Of a DNA stretch of 64,000 nt, positions 57,891 through 63,509 are shown piece after piece. Position 1 is the stretch's first letter. Every line of letters starts with the position of its first letter. The stretch comes from Syntrophobotulus glycolicus DSM 8271 (GTDB taxonomy: Bacteria; Bacillota; Desulfitobacteriia; Desulfitobacteriales; Syntrophobotulaceae): the NCBI RefSeq assembly GCF_000190635.1, contig NC_015172.1, positions 3,162,001-3,226,000 of the forward strand, written 5' to 3'. Position numbers and translations under genes: made by a program. Below the pieces are notes generated by a model that worked only from the letters and a program-made list of their open reading frames with translations, made no database searches and had not been told where the DNA came from.

Positions 57891-57979
57891 CATTCCTTGA
57901 TCACCCCAGTTATAAGAACAAAAAGACCTGTTACACCAGGTCTGAACACTGCATTCTGCGGCTTAAGCAATTTAGAGAG

Positions 57980-58735
57980 TTATCCCAGCATCTTTCCCAA
58001 TACGGAAACAATTTCCTGAGAGTACTTACGTCCATCACTTTTCAGCGCTTTTACTGCTGTTTCCATTTTTTGCAGCGGTTTATAGGGACGATAGGAGATC
58101 ATTGCATCAATACTATCGGCAATCATTACGATTCTGACGTCAGGATGGATTTGTTTTCCTTTCAGTCCTTTGGGATACCCGCTCCCATCCAGGCGTTCAT
58201 GATGCTGCAAAACGATATCCAGGCATCCCTTAGGGATACCGCATGGTTCAAGAGAGCTCATCCCAAATTCACAATGCTGCTGGATGTGCTCCATTTCCAC
58301 GTCATTTAAGGAACCGGGTTTCTCAATGATGGATTTTGGGATTAACAGCTTTCCTGCGTCATGCAGAAAGGCTCCCGTTCCGATATTCCATAACTCGTCA
58401 TCAGAATACCGCATTTCCATAGCGATCATCAGGGATATCATAGAGACATCTATACAATGAACATACAGCCAGTCGACATAGCTCCCCAGAGCATGGACAA
58501 AAAACCACCAGGGCTTCGTTTGGGAATCAGCGATGATCGCGCTCAATATCTCTATTGTATATTCCAAATTCCGTTCATTACAAATATTGATCTTTTCTGC
58601 GAGATCCCAGGCAATCCTGGAAATTGATGAGCCCTGTATCCTAGCTAAAACATCATCTGTTATTTTTTTGCCCTTAGCCAATAGCAATAACCCGTTTTCG
58701 TCATAAATATTTTTCTTCGCAAAAGGTTCAGACAT
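57980..58735 (-). CDS. HD-GYP domain protein (putative c-di-GMP phosphodiesterase)
   Basis: 251 residues without a REC domain. An N-terminal ~65-residue unit (YDENGLLLLAKGKKITDDVL) often precedes HD-GYP domains. The catalytic part has FLHDAGKLLIPKSIIEKPGS (HD pair) and LQHHERLDGSGYPKGLKGKQ (HHExxDGxGYP). The ATG follows GAGGGAG. A possible own promoter, TTGACT (58802-58807 complement) / 17 bp / TTTAAA, lies upstream. The inverted repeat at 58866 begins about 130 bp upstream of its start, so promoter inversion could add control. Confidence 0.9.
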   Translation of the reverse strand: MSEPFAKKNIYDENGLLLLAKGKKITDDVLARIQGSSISRIAWDLAEKINICNERNLEYTIEILSAIIADSQTKPWWFFVHALGSYVDWLYVHCIDVSMISLMIAMEMRYSDDELWNIGTGAFLHDAGKLLIPKSIIEKPGSLNDVEMEHIQQHCEFGMSSLEPCGIPKGCLDIVLQHHERLDGSGYPKGLKGKQIHPDVRIVMIADSIDAMISYRPYKPLQKMETAVKALKSDGRKYSQEIVSVLGKMLG

Positions 58736-58865
58736 TTTAAAGACTCCCTCTATGACTTGCTCGATTAATGGCAGGTTTAAATGCTATGATGGTTTAGCAG
58801 TCAACATTGATTTTCTCATTTGGGAACTGATTTATTTCATTCATTAGGACTATCGGCCTATTAGA

Positions 58866-58897
58866 TACAACATTTTAGTAATTTTGTTGCATTTACA
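58866..58897. repeat. Left inverted repeat (recombination site) of the putative invertible segment
   Basis: 32 bp, 30/32 identical to the reverse complement of 59689-59720. It has site-specific recombinase architecture: arms ACAACA and TGTTGCA around a 12-13-bp AT-rich spacer (TTTTAGTAATTT), followed by TTTACA. Confidence 0.85.
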
Positions 58898-58902
58898 ATA
58901 TC

Positions 58903-58924
58903 AAAAAAACCCTTTATATAAAGG
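58903..58924 (-). terminator. Short hairpin with T-run inside the invertible segment
   Basis: CCTTTATATAAAGG is a 14-bp palindrome; on the minus strand it is followed by GTTTTTTT. It would stop leftward transcription leaving the segment in its present orientation, insulating the HD-GYP gene. Confidence 0.6.
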
Positions 58925-58991
58925 ATTTTCGTTGCTGATTTCAGAAATTTTATTATTTTTTTATGTATTATAATTATCTTTTTTTATATAC

Positions 58992-58997
58992 TATAAT
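58992..58997 (+). promoter_or_regulatory. -10 element of the recombinase gene
   Basis: TATAAT in a very AT-rich stretch, 33 nt upstream of the ATG, in front of TTTGGAGGACG (ribosome-binding site). No clear -35. Confidence 0.5.
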
Positions 58998-59029
58998 AGT
59001 AAAAGATACATTTGGAGGACGAAATTATT

Positions 59030-59590
59030 ATGACCGTTGAACCAATTAGAGAAAAAGACAAAATTAAGCAGCTTTATCAGTATTTAAACGGCAGTGATCC
59101 CAAATATGCTCTGGTTTTTAAATTTGGTATTAATACCGGCCTGAGAATCAGTGATATCATCCCTCTTAAAGTGAATGATATCTTTAATCATAAATGGCAA
59201 TTTAAAGAGCACCTCATCCTGACTGAAAAGAAAACCGCAAAAGAAAAGAAAATTAAGCTAAATGACACCTTGCGCAAATCTCTTGATTTTTATATTAAAA
59301 ATCAGCGTCTCGACCTGAATGACTATCTTTTTCGAAGTCAGAAGGGCGGTTATATCGGGAGAATTCAAATCTACAGGGTATTAAAGGAAGCCGCTGCTGT
59401 AATTGGGATTGAAAATTTCGGTACTCACAGTTTACGGAAAACCTGGGGTTATTGGACTTATAAAATATCCAAATATAATGTCGGACTGATTATGGACACC
59501 TTTAACCACAGTTCACCCAGTATCACTCTCCGTTATATCGGTATCAATCAGGACCAAAAAGATGAGCTTTATTCCATTGTTCAACTATAA
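59030..59590 (+). CDS. FimB-sized tyrosine recombinase
   Basis: Start ATG 59030 (MTVEPIREKDKIKQLYQYL) follows GGAGG. 186 residues: essentially the catalytic domain alone, like FimB/FimE invertases and unlike ~300-residue phage integrases. All catalytic residues are visible: Arg in NTGLRISDI, Lys in EKKTAKEKKIKL, His-x-x-Arg in FGTHSLRKTWGY, His in DTFNHSSPSITL and Tyr in LRYIGINQ. It is enclosed by a matching pair of inverted repeats, which are its likely substrate. Codon use and AT-richness differ from flanking genes, suggesting separate origin. Confidence 0.92.
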   Translation: MTVEPIREKDKIKQLYQYLNGSDPKYALVFKFGINTGLRISDIIPLKVNDIFNHKWQFKEHLILTEKKTAKEKKIKLNDTLRKSLDFYIKNQRLDLNDYLFRSQKGGYIGRIQIYRVLKEAAAVIGIENFGTHSLRKTWGYWTYKISKYNVGLIMDTFNHSSPSITLRYIGINQDQKDELYSIVQL

Positions 59591-59650
59591 ATGTTCTTTT
59601 TCGCAAAAATCTTCATTGTTCAACCATATCAATACATAATCACCCATAGA

Positions 59651-59679
59651 TTGACAATTTTGTACCAGCAAGGTAAACT
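59651..59679 (+). promoter_or_regulatory. Outward-facing promoter at the right edge of the invertible segment
   Basis: TTGACA (59651-59656), 17-bp spacer, TAAACT (59674-59679). A TATACT also overlaps at 59679-59684. It starts 10 bp inside the right repeat and reads out of the segment. No gene lies in sense downstream before the terminator at 59781. Confidence 0.6.
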
Positions 59680-59688
59680 ATACTTAAG

Positions 59689-59720
59689 TGTAAATGCAAC
59701 AAAATTACTAGAATGTTGCA
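59689..59720. repeat. Right inverted repeat (recombination site)
   Basis: Partner of 58866-58897. TGCAACA and TGTTGCA form perfect 7-bp inverted arms around AAATTACTAGAA; the left copy's spacer reads AAATTACTAAAA on the same strand sense. Confidence 0.85.
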
Positions 59721-59780
59721 TTTATTGGGTATCCTTTCCAATAAATCTTTGGTCCGCTTTACTTTAAGATCATCGCTCAG

Positions 59781-59833
59781 AAAGGGAATATCGCCAAGAA
59801 CCGTTTATCGCGGTTGGCAATATTCCCTTTTTT
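59781..59833. terminator. Strong hairpin between the invertible segment and mutY
   Basis: AAAGGGAATAT...ATATTCCCTTT with an inner GCCAA/TTGGC stem, followed by TTTTTT on the plus strand. It should end rightward transcription from the segment; on the minus strand a TTTC follows, so it may also serve mutY. Confidence 0.85.
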
Positions 59834-62423: not shown

Positions 62424-63509
62424 TCAAGGTCCGGTATTCCCTTGGTCTGCCACGGAGGTGTCATTGACAATGCCCACAATGTTTAATTGATTTTCTTTTG
62501 ACAGGTCGACTAATTCAGAATTCACATAGATGATCGGCCTTGTGATGTTGTATTTGGGGATATGAATGACCTTCCCTGTCTCACCTGAGTTTAGCAATAC
62601 CTGCGAACCTACATAATGAAAGATCAGGTTATTGACAAAAGTGTTCATGATGCTGATATCGTAAGTAGTTAATCCTTCCGTCATCAGGATATCAAGTGCC
62701 GTGAAGGGCGTGTATTTGCCCCTGTATTCCCTGTCGGAAGTCAACGCGTCATAGGTATCGGCAATTGAAACAATTTTTGTGTTCATATTCAGCTGCCTTC
62801 CGGTATATCTGTTCGGATAACCGGACCCATCTTCTCTTTCATGATGCAAGAGAACCCCTACCTTTATATCAGAATCCATGGAAATGATTTCTTTGATCAT
62901 GTTATAGCCGTACATTGCATGTTTTTGGATCACCTTAAGTTCTTCAGAACACAATTTTTCTTTTTTGTTCAGTAAATCGAGCGGAATTTTAGTTTTGCCG
63001 ATGTCATGGAGCAACCCTGTCTTAATAATGTTTTTTGTCTTTTTTTCGGTTAAATTCATCCATCTGCAAATCAGTGCCGAATAAAATGCTACATTTAAGC
63101 TGTGCTCGAATGTATAATTATCATGATTTTTTATATCACAAAGAAATTTCACAAGGTATTGGTTACACGCCATCTCACTAAAAATGAAATCGCTGATCAT
63201 GTCAAGATTATTGATGTCGGCTTGATCATCATTCGACAAATTTTGGATTATCTTTTTAAGCGTTTTTATGTTATTCTCATAGTTTTCATAAAACTCATCA
63301 AGCTCCGGATCAATACCGGCGGATTGTCTTTTCTGCGCTGCCCTGAATATCCAAAAATCTTTGATCCCCATATTAATGAGGTTTTTCAGGATATATTCAT
63401 TGATTATGGTATTTTTTGCTACAATGAGCAAACCATATTGATTGAATATATCAACAGCTACCTGATCTCCGATTTTGCAAGTAAAAGGTGATGCTTTAAT
63501 CTTAATCAT
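62424..63509 (-). CDS. HD-GYP domain protein under c-di-GMP riboswitch control
   Basis: 361 residues. N-terminal unit with NQYGLLIVAKNTIINEYILK, similar to that of the HD-GYP at 57980; HD-GYP domain with HSLNVAFYSALICRWM, TGLLHDIGKTKIPLDLLNKK and LHHEREDGSGYPNRYTG. It should degrade c-di-GMP. The ATG lies about 130 nt downstream of a terminator and a GEMM aptamer on the same strand, so c-di-GMP would control its own breakdown enzyme. Confidence 0.93.
   Translation of the reverse strand: MIKIKASPFTCKIGDQVAVDIFNQYGLLIVAKNTIINEYILKNLINMGIKDFWIFRAAQKRQSAGIDPELDEFYENYENNIKTLKKIIQNLSNDDQADINNLDMISDFIFSEMACNQYLVKFLCDIKNHDNYTFEHSLNVAFYSALICRWMNLTEKKTKNIIKTGLLHDIGKTKIPLDLLNKKEKLCSEELKVIQKHAMYGYNMIKEIISMDSDIKVGVLLHHEREDGSGYPNRYTGRQLNMNTKIVSIADTYDALTSDREYRGKYTPFTALDILMTEGLTTYDISIMNTFVNNLIFHYVGSQVLLNSGETGKVIHIPKYNITRPIIYVNSELVDLSKENQLNIVGIVNDTSVADQGNTGP

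Follow-up and report, generated by a model that had tools for sequence, protein, structure and literature searches.

We propose that Syntrophobotulus glycolicus DSM 8271 carries an autonomous invertible promoter cassette, in effect a phase switch, beside a gene for an HD-GYP protein, a reading whose probability we put at about 0.88. The cassette lies in a 64,000-nucleotide stretch of contig NC_015172.1 (positions 3,162,001 to 3,226,000), hereafter the window, whose first letter is position 1 of the window coordinates used here. An earlier note had suggested an invertible promoter switch carrying its own recombinase. This is now supported by paired sites, co-varying cores, and a conserved outward promoter, and also by a conserved pairing with c-di-GMP and chemotaxis genes, by the assembly of a relative (G003), and by a published inversion in Desulfitobacterium dehalogenans (PMC5903667). 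The cassette and its surroundings comprise the following features.

57918..57946, minus strand: terminator-like hairpin (AGACCTG..CAGGTCT) with a T run, 3′ of the HD-GYP gene
57980..58735, minus strand: HD-GYP c-di-GMP phosphodiesterase gene (HD_5, 251 aa)
58736..58865, minus strand: leader between the left site and the HD-GYP start (130 bp), with an AGGGAG ribosome site before the ATG
58866..58897, plus strand: left repeat, on the recombinase-5′ side, containing the 26-bp left site (58866-58891) with its 12-bp spacer (58873-58884) and 6-bp core (58876-58881, TAGTAA)
58903..58924, minus strand: weak hairpin with a T run, inside the left end
59030..59590, plus strand: recombinase gene (186 aa, catalytic-domain-only tyrosine recombinase)
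59651..59679, plus strand: sigmaA-type promoter at the recombinase-3′ end, directed away from the HD-GYP gene as assembled
59689..59720, minus strand: right repeat, inverted, on the promoter side, containing the 26-bp right site (59695-59720) with its 6-bp core (59705-59710, TTACTA, the reverse complement of the left core)
59781..59833, plus strand: intrinsic terminator beyond the right site, followed by a convergent mutY-like gene

The two 32-bp repeats are inverted and identical at 30 of 32 positions, as the earlier note had stated, and their inverted match continues to 41 bp at 88%. Each site consists of 7-bp arms (TGCAACA and TGTTGCA) around a 12-bp spacer. The best ungapped inverted repeat around the recombinase gene scores 27, whereas 200 dinucleotide-shuffled versions of the two flanks never gave more than 13. 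In the 3,406,739-bp genome, there are just four matches to the pattern TRYAACA-N12-TGTTRYA: two at the window cassette and two at a second cassette described below. As in invertons, inverted recombination sites enclose the segment, and a promoter predicted by sequence match lies inside it and points out of one end. In any transcript from the outward promoter, the right site (window positions 59690 to 59725) would fall in the leader and fold into a 12-bp RNA hairpin (-11.5 kcal/mol).

The gene between the sites had been read as a tyrosine recombinase, and its 186-residue product indeed matches the Phage_integrase profile (PF00589) at an E value of 8.7e-22, with 78 bits against a cut-off of 27.1. 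Residues R39, K68/K71, H133, R136, H160, and Y169 are invariant among 16 diverse relatives and fit the expected catalytic residues (R..K..HxxR..H/W..Y), with roles putatively assigned by position. A structure search with this recombinase returned no sequence-close solved structure at an E value of 1e-5. Upstream of the coding region, the near-repeat TTTTTTTATGTATTATAAT / TTTTTTTATATACTATAAT and the pair TATCTTTT..AAAAGATA flank the recombinase promoter (58956-59010), where they could possibly serve autoregulation. Small tyrosine recombinases of approximately 45% identity are common on plasmids of Enterococcus, Lactiplantibacillus, and Bacillus and in Streptococcus phages; around those found in the order, no convincing paired inverted repeats were detected.

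The outward promoter (TTGACA-17-TAAACT) lies 9 bp before the right repeat and has an imperfect -10 element (TAAACT). The terminator beyond the right site is strong (-28 kcal/mol, z -6.2), in line with the earlier prediction. On the other side of the cassette, beyond the left site, the HD-GYP gene is transcribed away from it; its identity is confirmed by the HD_5 profile (E 1.1e-24), and its translation shows the HD and HHE..DGSGYP motifs of such phosphodiesterases. No sigma70-type promoter match was found on the minus strand of the 130-bp leader, which may contain a weak native promoter. No riboswitch was found in this leader either; four HD-GYP relatives have one. The hairpin at 58903-58924, which had been proposed to insulate the HD-GYP gene, is doubtful as a terminator: it is weak (-9.9 kcal/mol, z -2.7), and no hairpin comparable by our criterion occurs in other cassettes. 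Judging by hairpin strength and conservation across cassettes, we dropped the insulator role. Elsewhere in the window, a second HD-GYP-type gene (62424-63509, minus strand) has no associated inverted sites.

From this arrangement, a switching mechanism can be proposed. The encoded tyrosine recombinase would bind the TGCAACA and TGTTGCA arms of both inverted sites and exchange strands across the 6-bp core (TAGTAA), which would have to match at both ends, thereby inverting the whole 0.85-kb segment, recombinase gene included. The assembled state would be OFF, with the promoter firing into the terminator at 59781-59833 and the HD-GYP gene left with no evident promoter. In the inverted, ON state, the promoter would face the HD-GYP gene from approximately 170 bp ahead of its start codon and transcribe it. 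By analogy with locked pdcB strains of Clostridioides difficile, in which ON lowers c-di-GMP and favors motility (PMC9286219), the ON state should reduce c-di-GMP levels in a fraction of the cells and favor motility.

Comparison with related genomes, which the earlier note had proposed as a way to find the flipped form, bears directly on this mechanism. Recombinases of at least 73% identity are found in five genomes of the order (that of S. glycolicus, G015, G037, G003, and G004); a search with the HD-GYP protein ranks these five highest within the order, and each has the two genes side by side. The G003 cassette is distributed over the ends of two contigs, C18 and C25. The recombinase-5′ end is joined to a Rieske-gene flank on C25 and to the HD-GYP flank on C18, the two contigs share an identical 847 bp of cassette, and both end at the same base within a site. 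In G004 (locus L011), these two flanks stand on either side of one cassette. The G003 assembly hence holds the cassette in opposite orientations relative to its flanks, and the simplest reading would be that the sequenced culture contained both. Weaker evidence than that of G003 comes from the assembly of Caloranaerobacter azorensis, in which both contigs stop exactly at the site. The finished S. glycolicus genome shows one orientation only, and the recombinase has been lost from the second copy in the same genome; both points would suit a once-active switch that is now frozen, its promoter staying off and the HD-GYP gene using a promoter of its own. We consider this very unlikely for the window cassette, whose recombinase reading frame is intact with all invariant residues, whose two sites and matching cores are intact, and which faces a strong terminator outside the right site, while the HD-GYP leader lacks a sigma70-type promoter match.

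The window cassette belongs to a larger group. A recombinase scan of 84,980 species genomes yielded 69 loci, nearly all from Clostridia in the broad sense, and with three further cassettes from the order, 60 of those examined had paired inverted sites, usually located approximately 165 bp away on the 5′ side and 100 bp away on the 3′ side of the recombinase gene. As cassettes were found via recombinase motifs, recombinase-less derivatives are under-counted. Spacer positions 4 to 9 are the same at both ends of a cassette in 60/60 cases; the outer spacer positions vary, and positions 5 to 8 agree in just 25 to 46% of comparisons between cassettes. After removal of near-duplicates, the 6-bp core was identical at both ends in all 53 cassettes, versus a permuted mean of 2.2 and maximum of 8 (2000 permutations). 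There are 35 different cores, none of them palindromic, and they match between ends in the inverted orientation only, with no co-variation in the direct orientation. Recombination between the two ends of a cassette would lead one to expect such matching, which a tyrosine recombinase working on both sites with a 6-bp crossover region would need or produce. In an even draw of Clostridia, the recombinase was present in 15 of 391 genomes, and the core of the four fresh cassettes obtained matched fully in three and at 5/6 positions in one. Only in L157 do the cores at the two ends differ (TTGGTG / TTGGTA).

These data also bear on whether the enzyme could be a housekeeping or plasmid/phage-type resolution recombinase, the flanking repeats being only its autoregulatory binding sites. 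The frequency of approximately 45%-identical relatives on plasmids and in phages, and the absence of paired inverted sites around such relatives in the order, would fit this role. The close clade, however, comprises 60 loci with two sites at fixed distances and cores that match only when inverted, and its cassettes show a polarity to motility genes, making a resolution role extremely improbable.

Cassettes that reside at distinct loci of one genome differ in their cores in 10 of 10 comparable pairs, with approximately 0.4 matches expected by chance, a count that is suggestive of private cores within one genome and not significant alone. A separate case is found in Clostridium sp. Marseille-P2415 (G098; L142:4957-14920), where three units of a chemoreceptor gene plus a cassette stand in tandem. 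Their recombinases and sites are identical and share the core TAGGTA, pointing to either a recent amplification or an assembly effect.

As the target of a cassette, we took the closest gene encoding 90 aa or more that is directed away from it on the recombinase-5′ side; for two cassettes (L078 and L095), the target was set manually to an HD-GYP gene that is directed away on the opposite side. By Pfam class, 51 of 52 non-redundant targets are HD-GYP, EAL/GGDEF, chemotaxis, or FapA genes, distributed as follows.

HD-GYP: 17
MCP: 10, plus the che operon in L087
CheA: 6
CheY-like regulators: 5
CheW: 4
FapA: 4
EAL/GGDEF: 4

The sole off-theme target is an EamA transporter (L079), and one of the ten MCP targets (L082) is a truncated Cache-domain sensor only. 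Neighbors on the other side are an unrelated mix, no family occurring more than three times among 50. On the recombinase tree, target class changes 31 times versus a minimum of 7, the labels still being clustered beyond chance; cassettes have therefore changed partners many times. In the reference assemblies, the target lies on the recombinase-5′ side, corresponding to the proposed OFF arrangement, in 50 of 52 cassettes, and flipping may therefore be rare or strongly biased. Assemblies that depart from the OFF arrangement are L078, L095, and L160, plus the mixed G003.

The outward promoter is a conserved feature as well, being present at the recombinase-3′ end in 42/60 cassettes versus 4/60 at the opposite end. 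At the recombinase-3′ end, 31/60 cassettes have sigmaA promoter matches of at least 10/12, and 12/60 have a putative sigmaH-like element (AGGAWW..GTCGAA), an assignment that rests on the known consensus. In these twelve cassettes (L043-L110), the extended motif AGGAWWW..GTCGAAT stands before the right-hand sites, replacing the sigmaA promoter. Terminators outside the recombinase-3′ end are found in 17/53 cassettes, versus 1 expected from shuffles. Nine cassettes (L043, which is the L008 locus, L009, L047, L048, L066, L084, L086, L087, and L093) have a c-di-GMP-I class riboswitch between the cassette and its target. In L043/L008 and L066, the riboswitch begins just 25 to 29 bp from the site (L008:2253-2332 and L066:4723-4809), so that the promoter must be inside the cassette.

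A DNA search of the S. glycolicus genome revealed a second cassette (L004/L005) at 2,337,857-2,338,322, 0.88 Mb from the first. Both sites are present, with the core TAATCA at each end, a TTGACA-17-TACAAT promoter lies just inside the right site, and a terminator lies outside it; the recombinase has been deleted and has decayed. Next to this cassette is a gene of chemoreceptor type, with Cache and HAMP domains, oriented relative to it as the HD-GYP gene is to the window cassette, and the device is therefore placed at two motility-related genes in one genome. Although it lacks a recombinase, the second cassette may be flipped in trans.

An internally deleted copy 0.88 Mb away beside an unrelated gene is also what a small transposable element might leave behind, its inverted repeats being transposon ends that serve movement, with inversion not its function. 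The 31 target-class changes and the presence of several cassettes in some genomes point in the same direction. Transposon ends would not account for a complete two-arm site at each end or for cores that agree within a cassette and differ between cassettes; nor would they explain the conserved outward promoter, targets of one functional theme in fixed polarity, or the two orientations in G003. We regard such an element as quite unlikely. Movement and switching are not exclusive, and a family of invertible promoter cassettes may also spread.

A broader reading, for and against which we find the case evenly balanced, is that these loci form a plug-in phase-switch cassette family widespread in Clostridia. 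Each member would encode a recombinase of its own and contain an outward promoter of the sigmaA or sigmaH type; its 6-bp core would be private, so that several switches could flip independently within one cell. Repeated moves would have placed such cassettes beside chemotaxis, c-di-GMP, and flagellar genes. The two cores of a cassette would have changed together in the process, and derivatives without a recombinase may be flipped in trans.

The recombinase gene and an outward promoter also flip together in the Salmonella Hin segment, which differs from the window cassette in having a serine recombinase, an unrelated enzyme, and a flagellin target. In E. coli, fimS is, like the window cassette, a promoter inversion system with tyrosine recombinases of similar size; FimB and FimE, however, are encoded outside the segment, and the window recombinase resembles the FimB/FimE-type DNA invertase models of NCBIfam only weakly, with 23.5 bits (NF007371) and 20 bits against cut-offs of 222 and 221. 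The enclosed recombinase had been viewed as a distinguishing trait of the window switch. This holds in comparison with the RecV switches of C. difficile, which have no recombinase within the segment, and does not hold against Hin and Providencia stuartii (PMC5903667). The main text of that paper places the Hin gene inside its invertible segment and describes an 844-bp P. stuartii segment of similar size to ours that also encloses a recombinase, albeit at a gammaproteobacterial fimbrial locus and with 14-bp repeats (PMC5903667).

Among the C. difficile switches (pdcB/pdcC, flg, cmr, and cwpV), pdcB has an invertible promoter upstream of a c-di-GMP phosphodiesterase, as in the window, and RecV is likewise a tyrosine recombinase (PMC9286219). 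The pdcB switch differs in being a 174-bp segment without a recombinase gene and in controlling an EAL-type rather than an HD-GYP phosphodiesterase; RecV acts in trans on several switches, and pdcB's own recombinase was not identified (PMC9286219).

In Clostridia, the main text of Sekulovic et al. (2018; PMC5903667) reports inversions detected from read pairs, mostly near signaling and chemotaxis genes. One lies beside an HD-type phosphodiesterase in D. dehalogenans ATCC 51507, and other inversion sites are in Desulfosporosinus youngiae and C. thermocellum. The D. dehalogenans inversion is probably the locus orthologous to the window cassette, and all three sites are probably members of the cassette family. 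That main text does not describe a Clostridia family with self-encoded recombinases, nor a core code, classes of promoters, or riboswitches, and our search of main texts outside subscription journals found no other paper on such a family. The single switch is thus of an already-known type; what is new is the cassette family, with its private 6-bp cores, promoter types, and riboswitch leaders.

These findings name the probable enzyme and sites behind previously unexplained inversion signals in read data. The identity of the 6-bp cores at both ends provides a direct and testable rule for which sites recombine, and the 35 natural core variants offer a set for testing or engineering orthogonal DNA inverters. 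In several cassettes, the phase switch and a c-di-GMP riboswitch would stand in series on one transcript, and the sigmaH-like promoter would tie the ON state to the stationary-phase transition or sporulation. Our results suggest that many Clostridia bet-hedge between motility and attachment by means of one recurring DNA device.
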